From: Lachnospiraceae bacterium
Lineage (GTDB): Bacteria; Bacillota; Clostridia; Lachnospirales; Lachnospiraceae
Length of the DNA: 39,232 bases
Direction: 5' to 3'
NCBI GenBank assembly: GCA_017479285.1
Contig: JAFVCL010000033.1
Span: 1-39,232 of the forward strand
Of this stretch, positions 2,592-19,731 are shown piece after piece. The notes beneath the pieces were generated by a model. That model saw only the letters and a list, made by a program, of their open reading frames with translations. It was not told where the DNA came from and did not search any database. The translations under genes and the position numbers were made by a program. Within the stretch, counting starts at the first letter, position 1, and every line of letters begins with the position of its first letter.

Positions 2592-3401
2592 ATGAATGAA
2601 GTACTTAAGTCCTACATTGAGATTGTTCCCGTGATCAAGGATGCATTCGGAATGGATATCATGATGAGTGTAACCGATGGTTATAACTTCCTGGCGTACT
2701 GGAGAGGAGATAAGATGGTGGCGGATATCCATGTAGGAGATCCGGTTCCGAAGAGCGATCCGATGTGGACCAGTTTTACCACAGGGAAAAAACTCCAGCA
2801 GATATGCCCTGCCGATGCTTACGGCTTTGAATTTAAGGCGATTACCATCGCGATAAAGGATGGAAAAGATATAGTCGGGACTATGGGTATAGCGATAAGC
2901 CTCGAATCGGAGACATACACGAAGGAGGCATCCGAAAAGCTTCTTGCTGCCGTTGACAGAGTACAGAGCGATATCGCCGAGACAAAGAAAAACAGTGACG
3001 ATATAAAGAGCAGCAGTGCATCCCTCGGAGAGTCCACCGAAAAGATAATCGCAAGCGTCTCCGATATTCAGTCCTTTGTTAAGGATATACAGTCCATATC
3101 CGGAAAGACAAATATACTTTCACTCAACGCGTCCATAGAGGCGGCAAGAACCGGTGAAGCCGGAAAGGGCTTTGCGGTGGTTGCCACGGAAATGCAGAAG
3201 CTTGCGGGGGACATTAAGGCTGCCTCGGATAAGATACTTGATATAATTGCGCATTTTTCCGGAGATATCGAGCATATGAAGAAAAACCTCGAGATCCAGT
3301 CCAAAGCGCAGGAGAGTCAGTTTGAGATAGCTGACAGACTGCTGGTTGAAGCGGCTGCCATTGAGGATACCGCTAAAAATGTAATAGAGAAGATACAGTA
3401 A
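2592..3401 (+). CDS. Soluble methyl-accepting chemotaxis protein (short cytoplasmic chemoreceptor)
   Basis: A 269-residue receptor that likely signals to CheA/CheW. There is no membrane segment. Residues 1 to about 105 form a small alpha/beta sensor domain (strands such as [15 protein letters not shown] and [21 protein letters not shown]), reminiscent of PAS/Cache folds; the ligand is unknown. Residues 110-269 are a shortened MCP signalling hairpin. The tip matches the family well: [20 protein letters not shown] and [16 protein letters not shown] (about 170-205). The C-terminal arm is short and no CheR-binding pentapeptide is seen. The size is close to small soluble receptors such as B. subtilis YfmS. 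An AGAGG site precedes the ATG. Confidence 0.9.
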
Positions 3402-3415
3402 TCATGTGTGTACAT

Positions 3416-3446
3416 CGGGATTTCGCGGATTGCCTGCGGAATCCCG
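3416..3446 (+). terminator. Strong hairpin between the chemoreceptor and GNAT-giant genes (probable partial terminator)
   Basis: The 31-base element folds into a 13-bp stem (two G-T pairs) with a 5-base loop ATTGC. It is followed by TGTTTGTT, an interrupted T tract. It starts 14 bases after the chemoreceptor stop and ends 21 bases before the next ATG, so it separates the two genes while leaving no room for a promoter after it. It may terminate some transcripts, stabilise the upstream 3' end or act as a processing site. Confidence 0.65.
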
Positions 3447-3467
3447 TGTTTGTTACAGGAGAGAATT

Positions 3468-4307
3468 ATGAAAGGATACACCATCGTAAGACTCCCTAAA
3501 GAGGAGGAAAATACCGAGCGGTTCGGAGTGGAAAAGGGAGAAAAGGGAATTGTTGCGGAGCTTGATATTAGAAAAGAGGACTTCGCGCTTACCATCCCTT
3601 TTTTGTTTGTAAGTGAAAAGGAGAGGAGAAAGGGTATCGGAACAATGCTCCTGCAGGAGGTCATAAGACCTCTGGCGGGGAAGGATATCTTTATCCCTGT
3701 GGAGATGAGCTTTACGGATGAGGACAGCGGATTAAGGGAATTCATGGAGGCGCAGCCAAACTTTACGCTTACAAGGGATAAAGACCTTTTCCGTATCCCG
3801 GCGGATGCTTTGAAGAACAACGAGAAGCTTCAAAAGCTCAAAGAGGCCGCCGGCGGAACAAAGAAATTTTTCTCACTTAACAAAAAGCAGAGGTTTATCT
3901 TCTTTGAAGAACTTCAGAGAGCCGGCTTTGAGGGCTATGTGGAGGATGACAAGGAAAGCTATGAGAAGGAGCTTTCCCTGGCCGTGCTTGAGGACGACAG
4001 GGTTACGGGTGCGATATTTGTAACGGCACACTCGGAAAAGGAACTTGAACTCAGCTTTATCTATGTTGTCGCAAATCATCCAAAGACTGCAATCGCCCTT
4101 CTCGGAACCGCACTAAAAAAGGCGGAAAAGCTTTATCCGGATGCGGAGGTCTGGTTTAACGCGATAACCCCGGAATCCGTGGGTGCTGCCGATGGTATCT
4201 TCAAGGGCGAGGCGGAGCCGGAGACCATATACACCGCAAGGTGGAACGGATGGTCCGATGAGGAGCCCGGCGAGGCAGCAGGGCTGGCGGATGCTGATAC
4301 AGAGTAA
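3468..4307 (+). CDS. Two-lobed GNAT-like acetyltransferase encoded directly before the giant protein
   Basis: A 279-residue protein that looks like two GNAT lobes in tandem. The N-terminal lobe has a recognisable acetyl-CoA loop, FLFVSEKERRKGIGTMLLQEV (RRKGIG about residues 49-54). The C-terminal lobe (about 160-265) has similar strand order (LAVLEDDRVTGAIFV, LELSFIYVVANHP) but no clear R-x-x-G-x-G loop, so it is probably non-catalytic. The start at 3468 is preceded by AGGAGAG; an upstream GTG in frame at 3408 lacks a site and would run through the hairpin. Only 13 bp separate the stop from the next ATG, so the two genes are almost surely co-transcribed. The substrate is unknown. Confidence 0.75.
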   Translation: MKGYTIVRLPKEEENTERFGVEKGEKGIVAELDIRKEDFALTIPFLFVSEKERRKGIGTMLLQEVIRPLAGKDIFIPVEMSFTDEDSGLREFMEAQPNFTLTRDKDLFRIPADALKNNEKLQKLKEAAGGTKKFFSLNKKQRFIFFEELQRAGFEGYVEDDKESYEKELSLAVLEDDRVTGAIFVTAHSEKELELSFIYVVANHPKTAIALLGTALKKAEKLYPDAEVWFNAITPESVGAADGIFKGEAEPETIYTARWNGWSDEEPGEAAGLADADTE

Positions 4308-4320
4308 GCGAGGGTAAGAT

Positions 4321-7300
4321 ATGGATTTCAAAGAGAAGAATAAAATAAAGATCGAAGAGATAACGACAGAGGCACAGGGGGATTATGAGGTTATAGAAAA
4401 AAAGACCGAAACCTATAATTTCATTACCGGCGAGGATGTAATGTCCTTTAAGAACTGGGCATATCACGACCTCTGGGACGAAGATCACAGGCTTGTCAGC
4501 GAGGAAGAAAACGCCGAGTGGAATGACAAAAAGGCAGAATGGCTCGAAAAAAAGAACGGAAAATTCAGCAAAAAAGACCGTAATAAGAGCATGAAAAAAT
4601 GCAAAAAAATCCGCAAGGAAAAGATGGGCTCCCTCAGCTTTAAGGCACTTATGACAAAGCTTACGGACAATAAAAAGCAGCTTGAGCTTTCAAAGAAATT
4701 CCTTGACCTTCAGACCGAGGCGAGGGAAGAGTATATAAAAGCGACCATGACCGACAATTCGAACTACAAGCTTGATCTTGCGATGAACCGTATGCGTAAG
4801 CAGTACAGACTTACAAGGCTTTATCTCTCGCTCCAAAGAGACGAAAAAGACAAAAAACAGCTCTCAAAGCTTGAGGCGGGCTATAAGGAAGCGAGAGCAA
4901 AGCTTGAAAACGAGATAAAAGAAGCGAAAAAACTTCCGGGCTTTGACAAGAGATTCAAATGGGAAAGAGTAACCGGGAGAAAGGAGCTTTCCGAGGAGAC
5001 AAGGGAGAAAAACCGCATAATCGAGGAACAGCACAGAGAAGAAGTAAGGCAGGAGCGTGAAAGAAAGAGAATAGAAAGGCTTGAAAGGATAGAAAGAACC
5101 AAGGCGATGATCGATTCCGGCGAATGGACAAAGACAGAGCAGGGAAAGCAGACCGTCGTAAAGATAGATGAAGAGTGGCACCTTTCGGAATATAAGGAGG
5201 AGCTTGTAAAGGTCTTTACGGATGAAAATAACAAGCTTATGGAGATGCACGATTCCATAATCGCCGGTGAACTCTTTACGCTCAATAAAAATGTAAAATC
5301 CAATCTGAACTATATAAGGCAGCACGCCGCAAACGGGCTGACCGGAAGCTATGCCTCAAAAAAGGGCAAACAGAACAGGGAAATCGCGGAATATGTCGGA
5401 AAGGGCTTTGGCTGGATAAACAGGCTGTGTGTAGATAAATACACCGAAAAGCTCAAGAAGGCGATGATCGCGGATCCGGAGATCGCGAAGAATTATATCG
5501 CGAAGAATCCGCCGGAGCTCTCGGAGGAGGAGCTTAAGTCAATAGAGGAGGGGGCAAGGCGCTGGAAGGAGATAAGGGATCTCGACTTTAAGGAGATGGG
5601 AATCGATATCTACAACAGCGAATTTATAAAGATACTTCTCACGGATAAGAATATAAAGATTGATGATCTTAAGGGGCTCAAGAGACAGACGGAAGGGGTG
5701 GCAAGGCTCCTTAAGAGGATGGTCAGGGATAAGTTCGGATATTTAAATGACGAAGAGATATATAAGGGGCTGAGGAAATTTATCGGTGACAAGGCTCTCC
5801 TTGTAAGCAACCGTAAGCTGACCGACCTTGCCGAGCGGTATCTTCTCGGACTCTCATATACCGACAGGACGACGGCTTTAATACAGAAGGACTACGAGGA
5901 TTCCTATGCCGAGAACGTCACCGCACCCTTTGCGGGAATGTTCAAGGTAAGCGTGGAAAAATATCTTGGACACACGAAAAAGGACTGGGGTGAAAACAGG
6001 AAGAGCAGACGCGGGGAGTTTGACAACAGGCTGAAGCTTATAAATAAAGTGTTCACTGTTCTTACTGAAAAGAGCAGTGGAGTTATGATGTCAAAGGACG
6101 GCTGGAACGACGCCTTTGCCCAGGTTAAAAAGCTTATCACCGGTACTCTCTGGAAGTACAGTGCCTTCCTTACGGCGGAGGATGAGAAGGCGTTAAACAG
6201 GATCATCCTTAAGATCGTAAAGGACAGTGAGACGAAGGACAAGGGACAAGAGAAGATTTCCTTTGAGTCCTTTACGGAGACTGAGCAGAAAGAGAAGAAA
6301 AAGGAGGAGGAAAAGACAGAGAATGTCAGCGAGTACAGCTTTGCGCATATGCTTAGGGAAGCCTTTGACAGCGAGCTCTTTAAGGAGATAATCGCCGATG
6401 ATACGCTGCGGGCTTTTCTTGCCGACAATATGAGCGTATTCCTCTTCAGAAATCCCAAGCTTATCGAGAAATACCCGTTTATGAAGGACATAAAGGGGAT
6501 AGATGAGCTTGAGGAGCTTACCTTTGACCAGTTCGAGGCTGTTACGCAGTATCTGTACGATTCCCTCTCAAAGGACGGGGTCGGGGAGAGCATAAAAAAG
6601 ATGCTTGAGGGAACCGAGACCGAGACGGAGACCTATAAGAGGGTTCTTCTCAAGGTGCTTTCCGATAAGACTGACGGAGAGGGCGTTAATGCACTTTTAA
6701 AGGAGGAGCTTGACAAGAAGGAAAGGCAGAAAAAGCTTAACAGACAAAAGCTTCTCATAACCATTGGCACCAATAAGGGAAAACGGGACGGGAAGATACA
6801 TTACCGTTACGAGGACTTAAGAGACCGTGACAAGTCCATCCTCCAGACTTATTTCGGAAAGAATTCCGACTGGCTCCAAAAGAGGATAAGAAAATTCGAC
6901 CGCGCCGAGTCCGTATGGAAAAGGATAGAACAGCTGGGCCCCGAACAGACGGCTTTTGTAAAGGGAATCTTTGCAAGCGCGTACCGGGAGGAAAACCCGG
7001 GAAAGACGCTAAAATTGATCGCGGAATGCTTCTCGAAGGATGATATAAAGGCGAATCTTGAAAAATATGTTACCCTTGATGATATCTACACCGGGAATGA
7101 TCTGAGGGGGGACCTTGAGGTGATAGCTGCGGCATTTAAGATGAGCGACCAGTCTGCCGAGAAGGAACTGCTTGAAATCGCAAATAAAAGTAAGATCGAA
7201 AAAAATACAGCTCCAGAAAAAGGAAAAGCTGCCAAGCCCATGGGTATCGGGGAGTTCATAATTGAGATGAGTCTTTGCGGTACACAGGATATACTTCTCG

Positions 7301-10300
7301 GACACAAAGGAAAGTTCCAGAAGGTCCTCTTTATGTACGAGGATATGGATAATTATGACAGCGAGCTTATGAAGGTGGCAAAATTTGCCATCGGAAGGCT
7401 CGATGTGCTCGACAAGGCGCTTGAAGGGTATGATCCGAAGGTCAGGACCGAGCTTCGAAATAAGCTGACGAGAACCTGTCTTGAGCTTGAGAGCGAAAAG
7501 TATGAGCAAAAGCTTAAATTTGATGAACAGCTCACGGCGCAGACAATGGCTCTCGATGCCAATCAAAGCTTTACAAAGACTGCCCGTGATGCAGTGAATA
7601 ACGAAGTTTTAAGATATAATGAGATAGGTGTGAAGCTTGAGGACTTAAGGAGCGAGCTTAAGTCCGCGGAGAATGACAGAGACATTTCCGCAAGCACCAG
7701 GGAAAGATGTGTAAAGGAATCCGGGGAAAACAAGAAGGCTCTTAAGGAAGCGCTTAATGCAAAAAATGACGCTGAGAAAAAGAGAGATTCGGCTCAAAAG
7801 ACTTCTGCGAAGATGACGGAGGAATTTACAAAGAAATACGGAAAGAAAGGATTTGAGGCAAAGGGCTATGCGGACGCACAGACCAAACTGTCAAAGGCTG
7901 TGACCCTTTATATGGATGCGGAAGCGGCTCTTAAAAGTGCAGAAGAGGAATATGAAAGACTCCTGAAAAGGAGCAGTTCTCTGACTTCGCAGATCAATAA
8001 TCTTGCCGAAAAAACAGATGGTCTTAATAAACATATAAAAGGTCTTAAGGATGAGATAAAGAAAAACAACGATGAGCTCCAGACCATTTACGCAGCGATA
8101 CAGGATAAGAGAACCAAGGTAGTAAAGAATAACGACAAGATCCAGTCTATTGAGCACGAGACAAGTAAACTCGATGTAAATACAGTTCGGGAGGAATATC
8201 TTAAGGAAAACGCCGAGAATATCAAAAAATACGGAATAGACAACCTTAAGGAGCTTGGGGGACTGATAGAGCTTACTGTCGAAAAAGACGGGGTTATGAA
8301 GGATGAGCTCAGGGAGACTCTGGAGCTGTACGAGGAGAGGAAGAAAAAGCTCGAGGAATACAAGGACGGAAAGCTTGCCGGTATTTCTGATATCCTTATG
8401 GATAACAGCGAGATATTAAGCTATCTCTTGGATCCTGCGGACAGTGTGGCGGAGGCAAAGATAGATGAGCTCTATGATTTCTTTGCCCCTTTTGCAGAGG
8501 CGGTTGAGAATCAGGCGTCTCCTTTTCTGGGTGAGTATTATCTTGAGGATAACCTTGATATGCTCCTCTCCAAAAAGGGAAAGGTATACCACGGTATCGT
8601 CGGTTCGCTTAAGGATAAGGACCACAAGGAAAAGGTGGATTTCTGGAGAAATGAGCTTCTCGAATTCGGAGACAGATATTTTACCCAGCAAAAGAAGGGG
8701 AGCAAATCGATCCTTGAGAATCTTGAGGTCAGCGGGGGCGATCTTTTAAAGAAGCTTACGATCTATTATCAGGACAGCGGAAAGACAAAGGATGAAAAGA
8801 AGCTCCAGAAGGCGCAGTTTAGAAAATACTGGTTTATAGATTCAAAGAACTACGGAGTGGAGCTTGCGGCGCAAAAAGGGGGTCAGAGCAATTTCCAGAT
8901 TGCCACCCACAAAGCCCAGGCTATGCTCAAGCAGATAAACGCATATATAACGACGGATGAGTACTGTATACAGCAGGCTTGTATTAAAGGCACCCTTACG
9001 GATCTTTACAGTGAATATTCGGACAACTATATCGCCAATGATGAATATATGGAGAGTTATTTTGTCCAGTATGTCCTTGAAAACCAATACGGCGATAAAC
9101 GGATATCAAGGGCGATGCTTACGGACAACTACACTACGGGGGAGAAAAAACTGCTCGAGAGCTTAAACGACCGCTCGGTGGATGAATTAAAGGATATCAA
9201 GATCCGTCTCGAGGATTTCAGGAATTATATCAAGGATGCGGCATTTAAGGAAAAACCGGAGGAATTCGCCAAAAATATCGGCAAGTATGTAAAGGATTAT
9301 CTCGGAAAGGTAGAGAAAGCCATAAAAGAGGATTCCTCGCTTACAAAGGAGAACAGGGAGGCCTATCTTACCCGTATTGAATCCGAACGAAAAGCCCGTG
9401 AAAAGGTTCTTACGGTTAAGTCCGAGGGAAGAAATCTTTACGACAGGGAGCTCTTTGGCGGAAGGCTTCAGGAGCTTAAGGAATTCGGCGAGCAGAAGCA
9501 GTCGCTCATATATATAACCGGAAGCGGAAGGAAGAACAAGTCCATAAGATCGGCGGGAGCCGGGGAGGACAAGGAGCTTCTCGAAAAGGCAAAGGAGTAT
9601 TTTAAAGACGAGGAGATAGACGTGGTAAAGTATGTTTATCCGGATTTCCTTGCGGAGTGCCTTGACGAATATATGCGCCAGAATCAGAAATGGACCGAAA
9701 AGGCGGACAGAGCTGCGGACTGGGTGCTGAGATTCGACAATATTTTCAAGGCAGAGGCACAGCGTCTTAAGAGCATTTACAGGTTCAGAAAGTCCGTATC
9801 GGAGGGTGAATCCGACAGTGATCTCGAGGCATTTGTCGTCTATGCCGCGAGACATTCCGAGAGCAGACCGGAGGGGGATGTGCCTGCCGGTATTCCTGCC
9901 GGGGAGGAGCTGCGAAAGCTTGGTAAAAAGTTCAATATGCTCATGAACCCCATAAAGGAGCTTGAGCAGATTGAGCTTACGGACAAAGCGCTTATACTTG
10001 CGCACAGGGATGCCTGTGAAAAAACAAGGGCTCTCATATATTACCACAGGGATATTGCGCCAAAGGACTTAAACCTGCAGGTTGCAAAGCAGATAAAGTA
10101 TTTTGTATTTGCGGATAAGGCATACCGGGTAATGAAGGACGAGGTTGATAAGCATCCATACCTCTCGGGCCTTGGAGATGTGTACAAGAACCGTTACTTG
10201 AACGGACTTAGGGAGTATTTTACCCGGGATATAATCAAGGACAGTCTTGCGGATAAAGCGCTTGACGAAGGGGAATTAAGGAGACGCATCGGAAGGCGGG

Positions 10301-13300
10301 TTGTGGACGGATGCGCCCGTGAAGCCCTTATTGCAAGAAACGCAGGCTCGGTTTCAAATCTTGATCTTGAGCCGGAAAATATTTATCCCGGCGCTATGTC
10401 CGTTAAGGATTTCGAGCATGTGCTCGTCGCCACAAGGAAGAAGGAGATAATAAAGAGCTATAATGAGCTCGGTGCCACCCAAAGAAAGCTCTTTGCAATC
10501 TCGCTTTACTCATCAAAGCTTGAACAGCACGGGACCCAGAAGGTGGTCTACGGTATCTCGGATACCGGACTCCGCGATACAAGAGCGCAGATCATGCGCT
10601 ATATGAAGGGTGAGGATGTAAACTTTGAGGTTGATTACGCGAGAAGTATACGCGCGGTTTCCACAAAGAACAAAAACTTTAAGATTTCCGGGGATACGAA
10701 GCTGTTCGAGGAAGCGCTTGAATTTGTAAAGAAAGTGGATATGCGCAGGGAACAGCTAAGGCCCAAGGATTACGCGCGTATGTCCGACAGCCTTACCGTT
10801 ATAAAGGAGGCGGAGCTGTTCAGGGGAGAGGCGCAGGCAGGTGCGACAAATGTTGTTTCCCAGAAGAAGGAGTACGAAAAGCAGTCAGTCACATCCGCAA
10901 AGAAGTTCGAGAACCTTCTCTCCGATTATGCGATGGAGGACAGGGAAAGGATACAGAGCCAGGGGCTTATCGGAAGGAATGTGGATAAGGCGGACAGAAT
11001 GGTGGAGGGTTATGATCCGCAAACGGTTATGAAGAGGGTTAATAAGCTCTCAAATGCCCAGAAGAGCCTTATGATGTTTGTCCTCAGAGACAGGACCGTG
11101 CTGGATTTCTCATCTGCCGGCAAGAACAAAGAGGATGGTATCGTGCCCCATGTGAATGCGGAAAAGCGCTTTAAGCTTTTTGAACAGCTTGTTGATGAGA
11201 AGGGGCGTTATGAGGCGCTGAAGGAAGCAGGCAATGCGGAAAATATCGAGCAGGCCTTCGCATCTGCCCTTTCCTTCCAGCTGCGGGACGACAGGCAGCT
11301 CACGGAGGGTAAGCTTACAAAGGATGATTTTGTCAGCGATTCCATCGGCCGTGTTACTGTAGTTGACTGGAAGCTTATAGAGTATGCGGTGGACTTTATC
11401 GAGGAGGTAGAGCGGGAGAGAAGAAGACTCTTTGTTGTTCGTCAGGCAAAGAATATCCTTGAAAACGAGAAAAGCGAGCGTACACCCGCGCTTAAATTCT
11501 ACCATCAGCACAAGAGCATGGTTGAAAGCGGAAATACGGCGGATGCGATGCAGAGTTTTGAAAACACCCTCGATATCGCCTACAAGGAGGATACTCTTTA
11601 TAACGACAAATCCATTAAGGATGAGGCGGATGACCTTATGGGAGCGTATTACGGCCTTAATATGCGCGAGAAGGCTCTGTTCATAAGGGCTCTCGAAAAC
11701 AGGGACATACTCGATGTCTCACAGAAGAACCTCTACAAGAACTTTATCGGTCTTGCGGACAGAAATTTCGTAAACGAGAAGGACAGAGACAGTCTGGCGG
11801 ATGAGTTCATTGAGAATAACTGCAGCGTGGAGCTTAAGGGCAACGCTTACAGGGAAGCCTTTAAGTCCCTGTTCTCTACCCAGATAAACGACGATATGTC
11901 CTTTGAGAAGATAAAGGGAATAAACTGGGCGGATAAGAATCTTAATGTGGACAATCAGTTTTTTGTCACAAAGAGAAAGTCTGCGGTAGACTGGAAGCTG
12001 TTTAAGCGCGCGCTCCAGTTTGTAAAGAGAACGGTCAATGAGAGAAAGCAGACCGTGGGAAATGAGGAGATATACGAGGCTCTCGGCGACAAGCAGGCAA
12101 ACGGTGAGCTCAAAATAGATACAAAATACCTGCGTATGAACCTCCACAATACCGGCTCGAGATTTATGCGCTTCCTTGCGAAGGAGGGCTATGCGCAGAT
12201 AGAGGATGACCTCTCCGTCTTTGAGAAGGTGGGGGACTACGCGGGCTATGTCCTTTCGACAAAGACCAACAACTTTATAAAGGGAGAGCTTAATACCTTT
12301 ATAAGCAAGAAGGAAGAGGAGGCTGAGGCAAAGGAGGAAGAAAAGGAGGAGAACGAAGAGAACCAGGAGGAGGAAGAAAAGAAGCCCCTTGGCTTTATGG
12401 AGGTTCTTAAGGGACTCGCCGATAACTTTACCGAGCAGAAAGCCACCCTCGATGAAATGTTTGAGTCCGCGAAGCAGATGTATGAGGACACCAGAGAACT
12501 TATGAGCGATGAGGAGAAGGAGGTTGAGAGAACCGATGAGCTCCAGGAGGAACTTAAGGATATCAAGCTCCCCGAGGTGGTTGATAATTCGATCACGGGC
12601 TATAAGTATGTGGATCTTGTGATCAACGGAGGCATCAAGGCTGCGGCAATCAAGTCAAAGATAGATGAGGTAGCTCAGGATACGGAGACCCTCGAGAAGA
12701 TCGACAAGTATATCGAGGATTACCTCGGCGGATTTATGAGCACCAAAAAGCTCGGCGACTGGTACAGTGAGAAGATGGGTCTGAAGGACAAGGAGGATGA
12801 CAAAGAGGACGATAAAAAGGATGAGAATGCAAAGGAGGCGGAGGACAAGGAAAAACTCGGCTTCATAGATTCCCACATCCCCGAGGGGCTTAGAAAGGAG
12901 CTTGTGGGATACCTGGAGGCTGCCGAAAAATCCGGGGAGATGTTAAAGTGGGTTAAGGAATCCGTCTTTGATCCCGGTATGGAAATGCTCTCGGATATGA
13001 AGGATATGTACGAATCCTACAGGAATATATCGAAGCTTTCTGAGTCCCGGGAGAAGGCAAAGGAAAAGCATGATGAGGACTCCGAAAAGATCAATGGCGC
13101 AGGGCTTTCCGAGGAAAAGAGAAAGGCTGTCGAGAAGGCAAGGCAGAACAATCTCGATCTTCTTAAGGGCAGCAGCGATATGACCAAGAATATCGAGAGC
13201 AGAAAGATACTCCTTAAGACGGGAGACCTCGCGCAAAAGATACTGTCGGCAGTGGGAGAGGGTGAGTTTAACAGCTTTATCGACAAGGCGTTTAAATTTG

Positions 13301-13725
13301 CCGGCTTTATCTGGCACTGTATGTCCGACAGAAAGGCTGTCACCGCTTATTACAGCGCATCCGGAAAGGAAGACCTTGAAAAGATACTGGACGGCAAGGA
13401 CAGATTTAAGCAGAAGTTCCGGTATGACAACGATGTAAAGATAAAGAATGAGCGCAATCTTGCTCCGGACGGAAACCTTATCGTAGGATCAAAGGAGATG
13501 GAGACTTTGACAAACGGTATGGGATTCGAGGAGGAGGAAGAGCTTGTAAAGTTCTTAAGACTTAATATGGTCAATGCGCTTTTGTTCTCCGCAAGTAAAT
13601 TCAATCCCCTTAAGGAGCCGAAGATACTCGCAGAATGCACTCTTACGGTTTTAGGTCTGGAAAAAGCGGTCGGAAAGACGGATAACGAGACCGCGATGAA
13701 TGTATTTAACAAGCTGAGTGCGTAA
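4321..13725 (+). CDS. Giant 3134-residue charged, helical cytoplasmic protein of unknown function
   Basis: I do not recognise this protein. It has no signal peptide, membrane segment or cell-wall signal, so it is predicted cytoplasmic. It is very rich in Lys and Glu and poor in Cys and Pro. Visible parts: charged helices (about 1-270); mixed helical region with an acidic/basic linker near 655-670; long heptad-like coiled coil (about 1075-1360); further helical region; at least three degenerate repeats of about 200 residues (about 2047-2580), each opening with a pattern like L-x-x-x-x-K-x-L and closing with a DWKLF-like helix then an Arg/Glu-rich helix; two acidic linkers (about 2662-2690 and 2821-2848); and a C-terminal helical region. 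No convincing P-loop, nuclease or protease motif is seen. GAGGG precedes the ATG. It forms a pair with the upstream GNAT gene and ends at a bidirectional terminator. Confidence 0.93.
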   Translation: MDFKEKNKIKIEEITTEAQGDYEVIEKKTETYNFITGEDVMSFKNWAYHDLWDEDHRLVSEEENAEWNDKKAEWLEKKNGKFSKKDRNKSMKKCKKIRKEKMGSLSFKALMTKLTDNKKQLELSKKFLDLQTEAREEYIKATMTDNSNYKLDLAMNRMRKQYRLTRLYLSLQRDEKDKKQLSKLEAGYKEARAKLENEIKEAKKLPGFDKRFKWERVTGRKELSEETREKNRIIEEQHREEVRQERERKRIERLERIERTKAMIDSGEWTKTEQGKQTVVKIDEEWHLSEYKEELVKVFTDENNKLMEMHDSIIAGELFTLNKNVKSNLNYIRQHAANGLTGSYASKKGKQNREIAEYVGKGFGWINRLCVDKYTEKLKKAMIADPEIAKNYIAKNPPELSEEELKSIEEGARRWKEIRDLDFKEMGIDIYNSEFIKILLTDKNIKIDDLKGLKRQTEGVARLLKRMVRDKFGYLNDEEIYKGLRKFIGDKALLVSNRKLTDLAERYLLGLSYTDRTTALIQKDYEDSYAENVTAPFAGMFKVSVEKYLGHTKKDWGENRKSRRGEFDNRLKLINKVFTVLTEKSSGVMMSKDGWNDAFAQVKKLITGTLWKYSAFLTAEDEKALNRIILKIVKDSETKDKGQEKISFESFTETEQKEKKKEEEKTENVSEYSFAHMLREAFDSELFKEIIADDTLRAFLADNMSVFLFRNPKLIEKYPFMKDIKGIDELEELTFDQFEAVTQYLYDSLSKDGVGESIKKMLEGTETETETYKRVLLKVLSDKTDGEGVNALLKEELDKKERQKKLNRQKLLITIGTNKGKRDGKIHYRYEDLRDRDKSILQTYFGKNSDWLQKRIRKFDRAESVWKRIEQLGPEQTAFVKGIFASAYREENPGKTLKLIAECFSKDDIKANLEKYVTLDDIYTGNDLRGDLEVIAAAFKMSDQSAEKELLEIANKSKIEKNTAPEKGKAAKPMGIGEFIIEMSLCGTQDILLGHKGKFQKVLFMYEDMDNYDSELMKVAKFAIGRLDVLDKALEGYDPKVRTELRNKLTRTCLELESEKYEQKLKFDEQLTAQTMALDANQSFTKTARDAVNNEVLRYNEIGVKLEDLRSELKSAENDRDISASTRERCVKESGENKKALKEALNAKNDAEKKRDSAQKTSAKMTEEFTKKYGKKGFEAKGYADAQTKLSKAVTLYMDAEAALKSAEEEYERLLKRSSSLTSQINNLAEKTDGLNKHIKGLKDEIKKNNDELQTIYAAIQDKRTKVVKNNDKIQSIEHETSKLDVNTVREEYLKENAENIKKYGIDNLKELGGLIELTVEKDGVMKDELRETLELYEERKKKLEEYKDGKLAGISDILMDNSEILSYLLDPADSVAEAKIDELYDFFAPFAEAVENQASPFLGEYYLEDNLDMLLSKKGKVYHGIVGSLKDKDHKEKVDFWRNELLEFGDRYFTQQKKGSKSILENLEVSGGDLLKKLTIYYQDSGKTKDEKKLQKAQFRKYWFIDSKNYGVELAAQKGGQSNFQIATHKAQAMLKQINAYITTDEYCIQQACIKGTLTDLYSEYSDNYIANDEYMESYFVQYVLENQYGDKRISRAMLTDNYTTGEKKLLESLNDRSVDELKDIKIRLEDFRNYIKDAAFKEKPEEFAKNIGKYVKDYLGKVEKAIKEDSSLTKENREAYLTRIESERKAREKVLTVKSEGRNLYDRELFGGRLQELKEFGEQKQSLIYITGSGRKNKSIRSAGAGEDKELLEKAKEYFKDEEIDVVKYVYPDFLAECLDEYMRQNQKWTEKADRAADWVLRFDNIFKAEAQRLKSIYRFRKSVSEGESDSDLEAFVVYAARHSESRPEGDVPAGIPAGEELRKLGKKFNMLMNPIKELEQIELTDKALILAHRDACEKTRALIYYHRDIAPKDLNLQVAKQIKYFVFADKAYRVMKDEVDKHPYLSGLGDVYKNRYLNGLREYFTRDIIKDSLADKALDEGELRRRIGRRVVDGCAREALIARNAGSVSNLDLEPENIYPGAMSVKDFEHVLVATRKKEIIKSYNELGATQRKLFAISLYSSKLEQHGTQKVVYGISDTGLRDTRAQIMRYMKGEDVNFEVDYARSIRAVSTKNKNFKISGDTKLFEEALEFVKKVDMRREQLRPKDYARMSDSLTVIKEAELFRGEAQAGATNVVSQKKEYEKQSVTSAKKFENLLSDYAMEDRERIQSQGLIGRNVDKADRMVEGYDPQTVMKRVNKLSNAQKSLMMFVLRDRTVLDFSSAGKNKEDGIVPHVNAEKRFKLFEQLVDEKGRYEALKEAGNAENIEQAFASALSFQLRDDRQLTEGKLTKDDFVSDSIGRVTVVDWKLIEYAVDFIEEVERERRRLFVVRQAKNILENEKSERTPALKFYHQHKSMVESGNTADAMQSFENTLDIAYKEDTLYNDKSIKDEADDLMGAYYGLNMREKALFIRALENRDILDVSQKNLYKNFIGLADRNFVNEKDRDSLADEFIENNCSVELKGNAYREAFKSLFSTQINDDMSFEKIKGINWADKNLNVDNQFFVTKRKSAVDWKLFKRALQFVKRTVNERKQTVGNEEIYEALGDKQANGELKIDTKYLRMNLHNTGSRFMRFLAKEGYAQIEDDLSVFEKVGDYAGYVLSTKTNNFIKGELNTFISKKEEEAEAKEEEKEENEENQEEEEKKPLGFMEVLKGLADNFTEQKATLDEMFESAKQMYEDTRELMSDEEKEVERTDELQEELKDIKLPEVVDNSITGYKYVDLVINGGIKAAAIKSKIDEVAQDTETLEKIDKYIEDYLGGFMSTKKLGDWYSEKMGLKDKEDDKEDDKKDENAKEAEDKEKLGFIDSHIPEGLRKELVGYLEAAEKSGEMLKWVKESVFDPGMEMLSDMKDMYESYRNISKLSESREKAKEKHDEDSEKINGAGLSEEKRKAVEKARQNNLDLLKGSSDMTKNIESRKILLKTGDLAQKILSAVGEGEFNSFIDKAFKFAGFIWHCMSDRKAVTAYYSASGKEDLEKILDGKDRFKQKFRYDNDVKIKNERNLAPDGNLIVGSKEMETLTNGMGFEEEEELVKFLRLNMVNALLFSASKFNPLKEPKILAECTLTVLGLEKAVGKTDNETAMNVFNKLSA
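10459..12060 (+). repeat. Three degenerate protein-level repeats of about 200 residues inside the giant protein
   Basis: Repeat openings align as LGATQRKLFAISLYSSK (near residue 2050), LSNAQKSLMMFVLRDRTVLD (near 2243) and LNMREKALFIRALENRDILD (near 2446). Repeat ends align as DTKLFEEALEFVKKV (near 2122), VDWKLIEYAVDFIEEV (near 2347) and VDWKLFKRALQFVKRT (near 2556). Spacing is about 195-210 residues. A weaker copy may precede them (SVKDFEHVLVATRKKEI near 2030). The DNA is not repetitive, so the duplications are old. Alignment was by eye. Confidence 0.6.
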
Positions 13726-13763
13726 ATCCGCAGAAGTAATGTAAAGAGCAAAATGTAAAATGC

Positions 13764-13801
13764 AAAAAAAGCAGGGCACCGGGGTTCCGGCGTCCTGTTT
13801 T
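13764..13801. terminator. Bidirectional intrinsic terminator between the giant gene and the histidine kinase gene
   Basis: The stem CAGGGCACCGG / CCGGCGTCCTG (13772-13797) has 11 positions with one mismatch and a 4-base loop. It is followed by TTTT on the plus strand and preceded by seven A residues (13764-13770), which give a T tract for minus-strand transcription. It serves two convergent genes: the giant gene ending at 13725 and the kinase gene ending at 13806. Confidence 0.88.
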
Positions 13802-13805
13802 AAGT

Positions 13806-14990
13806 TTAGTTTCCGCCGCTCATGCGGAAGGTCTTTGTATAGCCATCCTTTTTAAGCCTTCCTCCGATGCGGTCGCCCTGGTATAGCTCAAGCTTAAAGC
13901 CGTGCATTTCCGCGACCTTTTTTGCGATGGAAAGACCGAGACCGGAGCCGCCCTTTGAGACCCTTGATTCATCACCCGTGGCGAAGGGCTCAAAGAGCTT
14001 TTCCGCAATAACGCTTTCAATCTCCGGACCGCTGTCTGCTATATCAAGCACCCAGGACCCAGGAGTGCCCTCGAGATATAGACCTATCCTTGTACCCTCC
14101 GGATTATGCTTTATGGCATTTGTAATAAGATTGTTTATTACTCTTGAAAGCTGCACTCTGTCGGCGCTTATGTTCAATACCTCTTCCGGGATTTCCGCCT
14201 CCAGCTCCATTCCCGCGTCCGTTACATCCTGGTACAAAAATGCGCCGGACTGCCTTAAGGTCTCGGCAAGGTCTGTCGTTTCTTTATGCAGCCCAAAGCC
14301 CTCGCTGTCTATCTTTACATAGTCGAAGAGGAGACCTATCAGCTCATCCACCTTTTTTGATTTCATGCAGATAAGCTTTAAATACTCATCCCTCTCTTCT
14401 GGCTTTCCTTTCCCTTCAAGTATCGCCTGTGAGTATCCGTATATGGTCGTTATGGGAGTTCTAAGGTCGTGGGCGATATCCGACAGCATAAGATTTCTCC
14501 GTCTGTCAAAGTATTTCTTTTTCTCCTCTTCCTCCTGCTCAAGCTTTCTGAATTTTGCGATAACGATGCCTGTAAACACCACGCCTGCTGCCAGAAGAGG
14601 TGTGAGAATAAGTACGACCGCCATGATAAGCACCAGGATTATAAGCAGCTTTATGAGAAAATTCAGGGACTCATAGTTATCGATAAGGACATTGCCTTCA
14701 AAGATGTTTATGCTGTCTATCAGTCTGTCATCAAGATTGCCAACGGTTATCGGAACAAATCTTGATATAAACAGCATAAAGGATCTCAAAACAAAATAAA
14801 GGATAAAGGCGAGAAGTGTCAGAACATCATACCTGCCGATGTTACTGCCCCTGAATATGAAGTCACCGATACGCGGAAATACAAGATTGTTAAGGACAAG
14901 CAGTATCGTTGTCTCGACCGCAAAGACAATGCCGAGTATGAGAAAGAAATTTTTGATTATATATTTTCTTAGGGCTCTTATCTTATCCAA
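13806..14990 (-). CDS. Membrane sensor histidine kinase
   Basis: A 394-residue two-component kinase. The N-terminal half has hydrophobic segments at about 14-36, 56-78 and 111-146, with a short loop rather than a large sensor domain. The HisKA site is SDIAHDLRTPI with phospho-acceptor His174. The ATPase domain shows the N box NNLITNAIKHNP, a G1-like DIADSGPEI, and the F/G2 region FEPFATGDE plus KGGSGLGLSIAKKVAEMHG. It resembles VanS-like kinases of Firmicutes. Its ATG overlaps the 3' end of the response regulator gene by 8 bp, so the pair is translationally coupled. The signal is unknown; membrane or envelope stress is a guess from the DUF975 partner. Confidence 0.93.
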   Translation of the reverse strand: MDKIRALRKYIIKNFFLILGIVFAVETTILLVLNNLVFPRIGDFIFRGSNIGRYDVLTLLAFILYFVLRSFMLFISRFVPITVGNLDDRLIDSINIFEGNVLIDNYESLNFLIKLLIILVLIMAVVLILTPLLAAGVVFTGIVIAKFRKLEQEEEEKKKYFDRRRNLMLSDIAHDLRTPITTIYGYSQAILEGKGKPEERDEYLKLICMKSKKVDELIGLLFDYVKIDSEGFGLHKETTDLAETLRQSGAFLYQDVTDAGMELEAEIPEEVLNISADRVQLSRVINNLITNAIKHNPEGTRIGLYLEGTPGSWVLDIADSGPEIESVIAEKLFEPFATGDESRVSKGGSGLGLSIAKKVAEMHGFKLELYQGDRIGGRLKKDGYTKTFRMSGGN

Positions 14991-15663
14991 GCTTGTAACC
15001 TAATCCTCTCAGGGTTTTTATATACTCGTTCGTGTCCTCGGAAAGCTTTGTGCGAAGCTTGCTTATGGATACCATTATATTATTGTCGGAGACGATATAC
15101 TCCTCATCCCAGGCGTATTCGTATATCTGCTGTTTGGTGTATACCTTGCCGGGGTGTGACATCAAAAGCTCCATGATCCTGAACTCCGTGGTGGTAAGCT
15201 CAACAGGAGTGCCCGCCTTTTCAAGGCTGCACCCGTCAACATCGAGAGTAAGATCCCTGAAGGAGAGCTTTTCACTTTTTTTCTCCCCCGCCCCAAGCTT
15301 GTAATATCTTCGAAGCTGGGAACCGACACGGGCCGTTATCTCGAGGGGGTTAAAGGGCTTGGAAAGGTAATCGTCCGCGCCGAGATTGAGACCCAAAATC
15401 TTCTCGGAGTACTCATCCTTGGCGGAGAGTATGAGCACGGGGATGTTGCTCTTTTTCCGTATCTCCTTTAAAACCTCATATCCGTCCTTCCCCGGCATCA
15501 TGATATCGAGTATGCACATATCCGGAGAGTTCTTTTCAAAGGAGGACAAAGCCTCGAGACCGTTTCCGGCCTCGAGTACTTCGTAACTTTCATTTTCGAG
15601 ATAGAGCTTTATAAGGCTTCTTATCTCTGCTTCGTCATCTGCGATCAAAATCTTATATGACAT
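14983..15663 (-). CDS. OmpR/PhoB-family response regulator
   Basis: A 226-residue DNA-binding regulator, the partner of the downstream kinase. The receiver domain shows the acidic pair DD (9-10), phospho-acceptor Asp53 in CILDIMMPG and Lys102 in DYLSKPF. The winged-helix output domain (about 130-226) ends with NIMVSISKLRTKLSED and IKTLRGLGYKL, typical of OmpR/PhoB and VanR-like proteins. This class usually binds direct repeats with an 11-bp period. Just such a repeat (TTAACA twice, 17019-17035) lies upstream of the operon, suggesting autoregulation. The gene begins 30 bases after the DUF975 stop. Confidence 0.95.
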   Translation of the reverse strand: MSYKILIADDEAEIRSLIKLYLENESYEVLEAGNGLEALSSFEKNSPDMCILDIMMPGKDGYEVLKEIRKKSNIPVLILSAKDEYSEKILGLNLGADDYLSKPFNPLEITARVGSQLRRYYKLGAGEKKSEKLSFRDLTLDVDGCSLEKAGTPVELTTTEFRIMELLMSHPGKVYTKQQIYEYAWDEEYIVSDNNIMVSISKLRTKLSEDTNEYIKTLRGLGYKLG

Positions 15664-15693: not shown

Positions 15694-16875
15694 TTACTCG
15701 GCAGCGATTGCAGGAGTATCTTCACCGGGAGTGCTTCCGCCGACAGGAAATCCGTCGGGATCCTCTTCCTTAAGTGCAAGATAGAGTGCTGCGTTTGTAG
15801 CCTGCTGATAAGGTTTTACATAGAATATTCCGAGTATGTCCATTGTAAGAGCGGAGAGGATGTGCCATCCGATAAAGGAAAGGTCGAGTACAAAGGCTTT
15901 CCACTTATTGCCCTTCATCATTCTGCTGCTGAGCTTTGTAGCCTCATCCTTGGACATTTTCGGGTTCTCGGAAAGCAGATAGGGAACCATACGGTACTCA
16001 TAGCTCTTAACAATACCGGGGATTATGAAGAGCAGACTCCAGAGGAAGATGAAGAGATCTCTGAAAAACAGTACCTTTACAATGTTCATATATCCGTCGG
16101 TAAAGCCGGAGAAGATAAGGGAGAGACGGGGATTTCCGCTGTGTGCCTCCTTGAAGAACTTTCTGCAGCCATACTCGATGGGTTTGAATACAAAGAGATC
16201 CAGTGCGATGGAAAATACTCCCACGATAAGGGCTATGACACCTACCACTATGGCAATCGCTATGGCTACACCGGCTATGGCGAAGCCTGCAGCCTTATCT
16301 ATATTCACATTGTTCCCGTTTACGCTGATGTTATTGCCGTTAATGACTATCGAGTTATCTCCGTCGTTTTCGATCACGATACCGTCGGAATCCGCAGCTA
16401 TCCTGCCGTCAACAAAGATGCCGTCCTTATTTATTACAACCTTGTCTTCACCAATGGTTATGCCATCCCTGTTTATACGGATCTCGTCGTCATCGGAGAT
16501 CATGATCTCATCATCGGATACGGCAACTCCATTCTTGAGACTATCCTTAAGCTCGTCGCGGATGCTGTCCATTACCTCCTCGGGAAGGTTGTTGATACGG
16601 ATGTCGATATCCGAATCGAATTCATCCTCAAGCTCATCCCGCAGATCTTCGAGGCTCTCAAGTCCGTCATCCAGATTGAGGCTGAAGTCTGACGCCCCTA
16701 TATTGTTTATGGAGTTTATAACTCCGGTCATTGAGGAACTGATTCCGCCGGATGAGCCTCCGGAGGCTGCTCCCGCGACCACAACGGAGGTTATGATAGC
16801 CACAAGGACATGCTTCCAATAGCTTCCGTAGAACGCTTTCTTACCTTTCGCTTTAAGTTCCTTTCTTGTCCACAT
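15694..16875 (-). CDS. DUF975-family membrane protein with a large polar beta-repeat insertion
   Basis: A 393-residue integral membrane protein of unknown function. The start MWTRKELKAKGKKAF and the later RDLFIFLWSLLFIIPGIVK and KGNKWKAFVLDLSFIGWHIL blocks are typical of DUF975. Membrane segments are near 22-40, 196-230, 265-290 and 325-350. Between segments 1 and 2 is an unusual insert (about 62-194). It has an acidic helix (ESLEDLRDELEDEF), then short strands alternating with Asp/Gly/Asn turns (EIRINRDGITIG, KVVINKDGIFVDG, DGIVIEND, SIVINGNNISVNGNNVNI), suggesting a small beta-helix or sheet. It is first in an operon with the regulator and kinase, so it may be their target or an accessory sensor; that is inference. 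AGAGGA precedes the ATG. Confidence 0.85.
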   Translation of the reverse strand: MWTRKELKAKGKKAFYGSYWKHVLVAIITSVVVAGAASGGSSGGISSSMTGVINSINNIGASDFSLNLDDGLESLEDLRDELEDEFDSDIDIRINNLPEEVMDSIRDELKDSLKNGVAVSDDEIMISDDDEIRINRDGITIGEDKVVINKDGIFVDGRIAADSDGIVIENDGDNSIVINGNNISVNGNNVNIDKAAGFAIAGVAIAIAIVVGVIALIVGVFSIALDLFVFKPIEYGCRKFFKEAHSGNPRLSLIFSGFTDGYMNIVKVLFFRDLFIFLWSLLFIIPGIVKSYEYRMVPYLLSENPKMSKDEATKLSSRMMKGNKWKAFVLDLSFIGWHILSALTMDILGIFYVKPYQQATNAALYLALKEEDPDGFPVGGSTPGEDTPAIAAE

Positions 16876-16979
16876 TTTTTAAATCCTCTCTTTCTCATTT
16901 AAAAATCGGGCATTTCTCCGTTACAGGCATATCAGGTATCCCGCCTGCGGGTGCCGCGAAATATTTATGTTATGATCGG

Positions 16980-17008
16980 ATTATAAAATACGAACCTTTC
17001 CGGTAAAA
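16980..17008 (-). promoter_or_regulatory. Predicted promoter of the DUF975-regulator-kinase operon
   Basis: On the minus strand a perfect TATAAT (16985-16980) is preceded, after 17 bases, by TTTTAC (17008-17003), a weak -35. Transcription would begin near 16973, about 97 bases before the DUF975 ATG. A good -10 with a poor -35 is common for activator-dependent promoters. Confidence 0.6.
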
Positions 17009-17016
17009 ACGAAAAA

Positions 17017-17038
17017 CCTTAACATTACCTTAACAGTT
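17017..17038. promoter_or_regulatory. 11-bp tandem repeat resembling a PhoP/OmpR-type binding box
   Basis: Two direct copies of CCTTAACA lie exactly 11 bp apart (starting at 17017 and 17028), giving TTAACA, 5 bases, TTAACA. B. subtilis PhoP binds TTAACA-like direct repeats with about 5-bp spacing. The box falls about 46-62 bases upstream of the predicted transcription start of the DUF975 operon, a classic activator position, and that operon encodes an OmpR/PhoB-type regulator. Confidence 0.6.
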
Positions 17039-17060
17039 TATAAAACAGGGAATATAGGGT

Positions 17061-18641
17061 TTATTTTTCCTCAATGAGCGCCCTTACAAATTCGTAAACG
17101 CGTCTTGAGGACTCAATATAAAGCTTTTCCTCTGTTGTATGTATATCCTTCATGTCGGGACCTATGGAAACACAGTCAAGATCCTTTATCTTGCTTCCGA
17201 GAATACCGCATTCAAGTCCGGCGTGTATAGCCTTAAGGACGGGTTCGCTTCCGTACATCTTTTTATAAAGAGCGGTCATTTTATCCCGGAGAGGAGAGTC
17301 TGCGCGGTATGCCCATCCGGGATAATTACCCGAAAGAACTGCCCTTCCTCCAAAGCTTTCCGCGAGGCAGCACACTCTCGCCGTAAGCTCATCCTTTGCG
17401 CTCTCAATACTGCTTCGCACGGAGAAGGTGGCGTGGAGAAGGCTCCCTCCGGTCAGGTCCGCACCGGATAAAGGATTGTCACCTGTAATCTCTTCGCTCC
17501 TTACGATACCTAAGTTAAGTGATGTCTGGACAAGACCCTCCACATCGGCGCTCATCGCCTGAACACCGTTTGGAACGGTAAACAGGAATTTAACGGCTTC
17601 GCCGGCGTCAAATGCAAAAGAGTCTGCGCCGGAAGCACTGCCGTTATCACAGAGAGGCTTTGAGGAGAGTATGCGGCAATAGATATCCGGATCCACGCTT
17701 CCGTATTCATCCTTAATATCTTTGTTAAAGCTCTTTACTTTTTCTTCAAAGCTTTTTACATCGGAAACAACAAGTCCGAATTTTGTAACTCTCGGAATGG
17801 CGTTGTCTGCAAGACCACCGTCTATATAAGTTATGTAAACCTTACCTCCGGCTTTGCCTGCCACCCTGTCCTGCTCCGCCTTTTTATATGAACCCGAGGC
17901 ATATTCGTACATAAGCCTTGCGGAGAGCTTATTTGAGTTTGCCCTTCCCTTTATTATCTCCTCGCCGGAGTGACCGCCCAGAAGACCGCCGATCTCCACA
18001 TCACAGACAAAGGACTCCTCCCCGTACTCTTTCTTTATATCCTCACAGGAAACCCCGTTCATGGGAAAATATACATTTGCCCTAAGGCCTCCGGCGCAGC
18101 TTGTAAGGAAGATGCCCTCGTCCTCGGAGTCGAGATTGAGGAGTCTGTTTCCCTTCAGCATCGAAAGGTCGATCCCGTTTGCGCCCTCCATCCCTGTTTC
18201 CTCGTTTGTCGTAAATACGACCTCCAGCCTCGGATGCTTTAAGCTCTCATCGTCAAGAAGCGCAAGGCAGTACGCAACGGCAACACCGTCGTCCCCTCCC
18301 AGGGAGGTCCCTTTCGCGTAGATATAGTCGCCATTTTCGCTGACCGCCACCTTAAGAGGCTCCTTTTTCATATCGATATCAAGCTCCGGGGTGTGAACCG
18401 CCACCATATCCATGTGTCCCTGGAGAATAAGGGGCGGAAGATCCTCATAACCCTCTGTCGCCTCTTTTATGATGATCACATTTTTATATTCATCCTGAAT
18501 TGTCTGCAGTCCGTGGTTTTTTCCGAAATCGGCGAGATAGTCGCTTATTTTGTCAACATTGTAGGAGCCGTGCGGTATTTTCGTAAGCTCCTCAAAATAA
18601 TAAAATACTTTCTTTGGTTCTAAATCCTCTAAAACTCCCAT
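17061..18641 (-). CDS. pepD: Aminoacyl-histidine dipeptidase (PepD, M20 family)
   Basis: Zinc-dependent cytoplasmic dipeptidase expected to hydrolyse Xaa-His and other dipeptides. The 526 residues are somewhat longer than E. coli PepD. Expected metal ligands and catalytic residues are visible: His76 in LQGHMDMV, the Asp pair in TSLGGDDG (117-118), Glu147-148 in TTNEETGMEG, Asp171 in LNLDSEDEG, and a late His in KAIHAGLECGILGSK. The order and spacing match PepD. The gene is monocistronic on the minus strand, with its own promoter facing the hydrolase-hydrogenase operon. No clear terminator is seen after its stop, so transcripts may run into the DUF975 regulatory region. Confidence 0.95.
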   Translation of the reverse strand: MGVLEDLEPKKVFYYFEELTKIPHGSYNVDKISDYLADFGKNHGLQTIQDEYKNVIIIKEATEGYEDLPPLILQGHMDMVAVHTPELDIDMKKEPLKVAVSENGDYIYAKGTSLGGDDGVAVAYCLALLDDESLKHPRLEVVFTTNEETGMEGANGIDLSMLKGNRLLNLDSEDEGIFLTSCAGGLRANVYFPMNGVSCEDIKKEYGEESFVCDVEIGGLLGGHSGEEIIKGRANSNKLSARLMYEYASGSYKKAEQDRVAGKAGGKVYITYIDGGLADNAIPRVTKFGLVVSDVKSFEEKVKSFNKDIKDEYGSVDPDIYCRILSSKPLCDNGSASGADSFAFDAGEAVKFLFTVPNGVQAMSADVEGLVQTSLNLGIVRSEEITGDNPLSGADLTGGSLLHATFSVRSSIESAKDELTARVCCLAESFGGRAVLSGNYPGWAYRADSPLRDKMTALYKKMYGSEPVLKAIHAGLECGILGSKIKDLDCVSIGPDMKDIHTTEEKLYIESSRRVYEFVRALIEEK

Positions 18642-18660
18642 GTTACTTCTTTTACTCCTT

Positions 18661-18690
18661 TTGGTACTTTTATATGCTTTGTGCTATAAT
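18661..18690 (+). promoter_or_regulatory. Predicted promoter of the hydrolase-hydrogenase operon
   Basis: TTGGTA (18661-18666) and a perfect TATAAT (18685-18690) are 18 bases apart. Transcription would start near 18697, leaving a leader of about 110 bases before the GTG start at 18807. It overlaps the pepD promoter almost completely on the opposite strand. Confidence 0.65.
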
Positions 18691-18697
18691 ATACCAA
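18669..18697 (-). promoter_or_regulatory. Predicted pepD promoter
   Basis: On the minus strand, TTGGTA (18697-18692) and TATAAA (18674-18669) are 17 bases apart. Transcription would start near 18662, about 20 bases before the pepD ATG. AAGGAG and AAGAAG lie between them and the start codon. Confidence 0.65.
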
Positions 18698-18699
18698 TA

Positions 18700-18800
18700 A
18701 AATACACCAAAAGCCGGTTGCCCGCAAGTGCGCGGAGAAAGCCGGAAAGGTTTTAAACCCGCGAAGCAGACAGGTTAAGACCGCGGCCGGGTAAGAAAGG
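18700..18800 (+). promoter_or_regulatory. GC-rich, potentially structured leader of unknown type
   Basis: The leader before the hydrolase gene is more GC-rich than its surroundings. It holds several possible short stems: CCGC / GCGG near 18722-18734, GGTTT / AAACC near 18749-18759, and CCGCG / CGCGG near 18759-18785. GCCGG occurs twice as a direct repeat. I could not match it to a riboswitch class by eye. Confidence 0.3.
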
Positions 18801-18806
18801 ACAAAT

Positions 18807-19715: not shown

Positions 19716-19731
19716 ATAACAGGGGGACGAT

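Follow-up and report, generated by a model that had tools for sequence, protein, structure and literature searches.

Giant helical proteins of Lachnospiraceae linked to a contractile injection system and to a tandem-GNAT partner gene

Very large effectors are known among extracellular contractile injection systems (eCISs), Afp18 being one, and the domain DUF4157 is not present in every effector of a contractile injection system (CIS). The polar N-terminal signal of CIS effectors has about 20-50 residues. One paper describes the loading signals of eCIS effectors as polar and N-terminal, with no conserved or fixed sequence detected (PMC11297309), and another describes a disordered N-terminus for effectors of lineage Ia eCISs and the involvement of the AAA ATPase Pvc15 in loading (PMC11495950). 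CIS effectors of gut Firmicutes are almost unexplored. A word search of the main text of two broad CIS surveys (PMC12210884, PMC8213781) returned none of the terms Lachnospir-, rumen and acetyltransferase, and a full-text literature search, for which other wordings are possible, yielded no paper joining extracellular contractile injection with Butyrivibrio or Lachnospiraceae. A search of the literature on giant proteins of rumen bacteria likewise found nothing relevant among the papers listed.

The protein considered here is encoded in a stretch of 39,232 nucleotides (the window) from a Lachnospiraceae bacterium. Judged from its sequence, it is a member of an undescribed family of giant proteins that are predicted to be helical. 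The link between this family and a CIS is strong, and the giant is probably a cargo (effector) of a Lachnospiraceae CIS that has a dedicated GNAT partner, its status as cargo being what we infer from that link and from its gene neighbors.

A giant frame under selection and its anatomy

The giant ORF (P0001; 4321..13725, + strand) is one uninterrupted frame that starts with ATG and runs for 3134 codons, and the encoded protein has a mass of 363 kDa and a pI of 5.9. A genus-wide search for homologues and their gene neighbors, which had been proposed along with the original prediction, found full-length homologues in two of 30 other genomes of the genus (G005 and G012), both with a GNAT partner gene beside them. 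The two frames, of 3156 and 3092 aa, align end to end with the window giant at 52% and 39% identity, respectively. Substitutions relative to these congeners amount to 34.9, 26.5 and 59.3% at codon positions 1, 2 and 3 in the first comparison and to 45.3, 35.7 and 63.2% in the second, and the excess at third positions indicates purifying selection on the protein. The original prediction of a single intact 9.4-kb frame kept open by selection is thus well founded. That the gene is untranslated or decaying is almost certainly wrong, since three intact frames of 9.3-9.5 kb with a third-position excess contradict it and nothing was found in its favor.

The protein had been described as highly charged and as lacking recognizable enzyme or membrane signals, and both descriptions agree with what was found: blocks of 200 aa contain 14-26% acidic and 14-24% basic residues, and no 19-residue Kyte-Doolittle window exceeds 1.6 (maximum 1.05). 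Profile matches to a known family, which would have spoken against a protein of unknown function, were sought along its whole length, and no family in Pfam, NCBIfam or PHROG matched at the cut-off or at an E value of 0.001. Toxin, enzyme and DUF4157 domains were all absent from the Pfam search. Nor did any PDB sequence match at an E value of 0.001, and PADLOC profiles gave nothing useful. The LmuB (Lamassu) profile matched weakly (E 2.9e-4) and only over aa 1041-1345, a coiled-coil-like stretch.

An alignment of 44 long homologues served to define the anatomy of the giant. Conservation in the family is highest over aa ~2030-2660 and in the final ~75 residues. Comparison of profiles resolves the former into module 1 (aa ~2030-2150; 10408..10770, + strand), module 2 (aa ~2230-2375; 11008..11445, + strand) and module 3 (aa ~2436-2580; 11626..12060, + strand), the last being where conservation in the family peaks. 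In single comparisons, modules 2 and 3 match at E 1e-22 and modules 1 and 3 at 5.6e-6, with only 0.004 for modules 1 and 2. When the family profile is compared with itself, aa 2028-2368 align with aa 2221-2576 at E 1.6e-18. The repeated C-terminal module of the original prediction is therefore recovered by profiles, as three modules, although BLAST of the giant against itself makes no repeat visible. The long coiled coil that had been read from the sequence is consistent with aa ~1060-1290 (7498..8190, + strand), the least conserved stretch of the giant, which has weak coiled-coil-type profile matches. One of the acidic linkers could be placed, at aa ~2665-2690 (12313..12390, + strand). In the 11 genomes searched, the conserved C-terminal domain (aa 3059-3134; 13495..13722, + strand) was found on no proteins other than the giants. 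A role for this domain as a general secretion tag was accordingly rejected, all other matches having E values of at least 0.02. Its likeness by eye to the end of a 966-aa neighbor at locus L044 received no support from the profile.

AlphaFold2 models of aa 1-1060 (mean pLDDT 80.4, pTM 0.47) and aa 2001-3134 (mean pLDDT 71.1, pTM 0.63) are nearly all helix, with a few short strands besides an N-terminal hairpin, in keeping with the helical protein that had been proposed. The structural comparison suggested at the same time was made with these two models, and no fold among PDB structures stood out.

One scan of genome contigs located relatives of the giant at 53 further loci, which are related to each other, so that counts over them are not independent. 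By title, 51 of these loci are from Lachnospiraceae or Butyrivibrio, one is from Clostridiales and one from Gracilibacteraceae, and a ruminant gut or host is named in 10. Giant frames with both ends closed are mostly ~2200-3700 aa long; at L070 the giant is split and its C-terminal domain lies in the next ORF. Matches to the giant were present in 10 of 397 sampled genomes of the family, including one of 68 residues (E 3.9e-4) in G155 that is probably not a giant, and two genomes (G411 and G425) have two giants of the family each. An order-wide sample had matches in five of 392 genomes; besides the genome of the window itself, three of these are of one genus and one is outside the family (E 6.4e-4). 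Viral contigs yielded 16 pattern stretches and no relative of the giant.

The tandem-GNAT partner and the N-terminus of the giant

Directly upstream of the giant, and ending 13 bp before its start, is a gene on the same strand (3408..4307, +) that encodes 299 aa from a GTG codon, the conserved start probably being the ATG at 3468. The product matches Pfam Acetyltransf_1 with 29.2 bits (cut-off 20.7) and retains the acetyl-CoA motif R-x-x-G-x-G in its first half, as RRKGIG; by profile and motif it is a GNAT and a predicted acetyltransferase. The alignment and the length of the protein suggest a second GNAT-like half. Orthologues with 51% and 46% identity adjoin the two congeneric giants, and among 31 genomes of the genus matches with E <1e-150 occur only in the three that have a giant, the best match in a genome lacking one being 1.5e-8. 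Weaker matches lead to other large proteins beside tandem GNATs, including one of 883 aa in G005 and an array on another contig of the window's own genome (L107, G000:C4). The latter comprises proteins of 1584, 1122 and 649 aa (10337-15091, 16533-19901 and 3699-5648, all on the - strand), which are likely further cargo genes. The 1584-aa protein has an ABC1 kinase match, and the 1122-aa protein is one that we take, by eye, to resemble a papain-like enzyme.

A GNAT-family gene lies on the same strand within 120 bp of the giant at 20 of the 34 loci with more than 1 kb of sequence on both sides, and somewhere in the fetched stretch at 27 of them; with any flank longer than 1 kb, the GNAT gene is adjacent at 28 of 48 loci. 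These adjacency counts are descriptive, as the iterated profile was trained on the same, related loci. An MCP-signalling-domain gene (269 aa; 2592-3401), which ends 6 bp before the GNAT ORF, was considered as a further partner and rejected, since the giants of the two congeners have a GGDEF and an EF-G gene in this position. Elsewhere in the window are a 1425-aa hybrid sensor with Reg_prop propeller, kinase, receiver and Hpt domains (29988-34265), beside two HD_5 proteins, and a 482-aa Fe-only hydrogenase-like protein (19732-21180), beside an NMT1-type ABC transporter.

Of 60 GNAT neighbors, a set in which some proteins appear under two locus names, 28 have the acetyl-CoA motif, which hints that the GNAT may act as an escort in part of the family. 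Toxins can be inactivated by GNAT enzymes, and the window partner retains the motif. One might then suppose that the giant travels by another route, as cargo or adhesin, for example as a toxin released by cell lysis, and that the GNAT confers immunity or self-protection. Such an arrangement is very unlikely, given how many GNAT neighbors lack the motif and that two GNATs may go with one cargo type; moreover, it leaves the link to the CIS unexplained.

The giant begins with MDFKEK (4321..4338, + strand), a hexapeptide common to three other large proteins behind tandem GNATs. The pattern MDFK[EQ]K occurs at four places in 24 genomes (one for the backward control), and all four are the starts of large ORFs (3134, 883, 3483 and 1926 aa) that follow a tandem-GNAT gene at a distance of 12-15 bp. 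No homology of the window giant to the other three proteins is detectable; those three share internal domains among themselves, and several unrelated proteins of the arrays begin with MDFK. A relaxed form of the motif starts seven of 165 ORFs of at least 600 aa and none of 456 shorter ones. In 44 giants, polarity is 0.65 over the first 35 residues, compared with 0.54 for the remainder of these proteins and 0.47 for 251 other ORFs, a polar start of the kind described for eCIS signals (PMC11297309). AlphaFold2 predicts for the N-terminus of the window giant a helix at aa 2-6 and a beta hairpin at aa 8-33, with pLDDT of about 70-80, and this predicted structure counts against a simple transfer of the published eCIS loading model.

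Association with a contractile injection system

A GNAT neighbor in G019 and a gene downstream of the giant at L044 prompted a test for a CIS, with the tube family PF06841 as the marker. The tube was found in all 13 of the giant-bearing genomes tested and in one of 13 congeners without a giant (of 28 such congeners); the exception is G019, where a CIS gene has tandem GNATs next to it. Among the 397 genomes of the family, 43 have PF06841, with a tube in eight of 10 giant carriers and 35 of 387 others (Fisher p 3.9e-7). The two giant calls without a tube are those in G084, which is 60% complete, and the doubtful one in G155. Of the 397 genomes, 41 encode a 617-aa protein whose gene heads the CIS operon. 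A close subtype of this protein, cut at E 1e-120 after inspection of the list and thus post hoc, is found in 19 genomes, among them eight of the 10 with a giant (p 2.3e-10).

In the genome of the window itself, sheath, tube and Pvc16_N exceed the Pfam cut-offs on contig C57, which ends at 30,193, so that only other genomes showed baseplate genes. As this contig is not that of the window, the CIS was invisible to the author of the original prediction. Giant and tube are on separate contigs in nine of the 13 giant genomes, that of the window included, and in Su6 they are 409 kb apart on one contig. The giant is 34 kb before the tube in G141 and 23 kb before it in the metagenome-assembled Butyrivibrio RGIG9232, where an AAA gene and the CIS head gene lie between. 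Both in RGIG9232 and in the well-assembled genome of the isolate XBB2008, the giant is on the same strand as the CIS operon, upstream of it and within 45 kb of the tube.

In XBB2008 (L088), a stretch of 100 kb has 54 ORFs, of which 52 share one strand, and the gaps between ORFs have a median of 15 bp. The array encodes proteins of 2020+, 1378, 3483, 2450 (the giant), 1162, 1008 and 1926 aa together with seven tandem-GNAT genes, and it runs into CIS genes (DUF4280, sheath-like, tube, gp25, baseplate J and AAA ATPase). The 1378-aa protein, beside tandem GNATs, is a calpain-family protease (L123 10091-14224; E 1.6e-27). Small genes of 161-216 aa bear a likeness, by eye, to those of secretion chaperones. 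Among them, genes of 172-216 aa directly precede proteins of 0.9-1.2k aa at L068 (14453-15103) and L120 (11817-12332), and at L044 (16476-17000) a small gene lies behind the large protein rather than before it; where tested, these small genes had no Pfam match.

It is possible, though unlikely, that the giant acts inside the cell that makes it, as a cytoplasmic scaffold or regulator, and is merely co-inherited with CIS islands. The giant has no secretion signal, the giant-GNAT pair of the window stands alone beside housekeeping genes, and the motif and the polar N-terminus are weak evidence of export. On the other hand, the giant and the CIS co-occur over several genera and at different loci, and the giant-GNAT pair is found inside the CIS-linked arrays of XBB2008 and RGIG9232.

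That the giant belongs to the structure of the CIS or serves in its assembly, for instance as an extremely long protein of tape-measure type or as a scaffold for long tubes, is rather unlikely. Such a role would suit a protein that is long, helical, strictly CIS-linked and equipped with a coiled-coil region, and a study on Streptomyces indicates that proteins related to tape measures can serve as CIS effectors (PMC13277306). The giant, however, lies outside the structural operon, is missing from 11 of the 19 genomes with the CIS subtype and is present twice in G411 and G425. It also has no hydrophobic segment. The CIS operon includes a gene of variable length behind the tube genes (819 aa at L119, 7271-9727, and 630 aa at L122, 928-2817), which is a candidate for the tape measure.

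The cargo reading and known systems

The original prediction had left a choice among a scaffold, a cytoskeletal or compartment-organizing protein and a very large effector. The last of these is the best supported, since the family goes with the CIS and the GNAT family is also found beside other large CIS-linked array proteins; the other options gained no support. Against the cargo reading are the presence of the relaxed motif in only four of 44 intact giants, the lack of an enzyme or toxin domain, the absence of a giant from 11 of the 19 genomes of the CIS subtype and the frequent location of giant and CIS on separate contigs. If the giant is indeed cargo, it would be made in the cytoplasm and then threaded or docked into the CIS tube. 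The GNAT may help with loading, either as an escort or by modifying the N-terminus, and the CIS-linked AAA ATPase may assist. Contraction would then deliver the giant into a neighboring cell, with rumen ciliates, fungi or bacteria as possible targets. The calpain-like and kinase-like neighbors raise the idea that eukaryotic neighbors, for example ciliates, may receive proteins injected by rumen bacteria.

A more tentative extension, which we regard as possible but doubtful, is that rumen-type Lachnospiraceae have CIS islands of ~100 kb with a dedicated class of giant cargo of ~250-430 kDa, and that every cargo type has a tandem-GNAT of its own as escort, which recognizes or modifies a short N-terminal code (MDFKxK in one group). 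Were the GNAT to act as such an escort, it would be a form of cargo-partner loading undescribed for CISs, in which GNAT folds have become loading factors. Giants of 2200-3700 residues, if loaded into the tube, would mark an extreme in the size and loading of cargo, and the GNAT partner together with the N-terminal hexapeptide would offer a direct, testable handle on cargo recognition.

Among described systems, the effectors of eCISs such as PVC and Afp are among the closest. Like the giants, they are made in the cytoplasm, are encoded near CIS genes with an AAA ATPase in the cluster, and have a polar N-terminus, and like the array proteins they have diverse, non-homologous bodies. In contrast to them, the giant family is larger and all-helical, is without a recognized toxin domain or DUF4157, is accompanied by a tandem-GNAT gene and has a predicted N-terminus that is not disordered. 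The partner resembles GNAT acetyltransferases in its Acetyltransf_1 match and in the motif of its first half; it differs from them in having two GNAT-like halves, in its genetic tie to large CIS-linked proteins and in the loss of the motif in about half of the partner set. Sle1 and Sle2 of the Streptomyces CIS, as described in the study cited above (PMC13277306), are an effector and its dedicated partner that are CIS-associated and include no classical toxin, which parallels the giant-GNAT pair. Compared by description, the two systems differ in that Sle1 has relatives among phage tape-measure proteins and a CIS effector core domain is found in Sle2, whereas the partner of the giant is GNAT-like.
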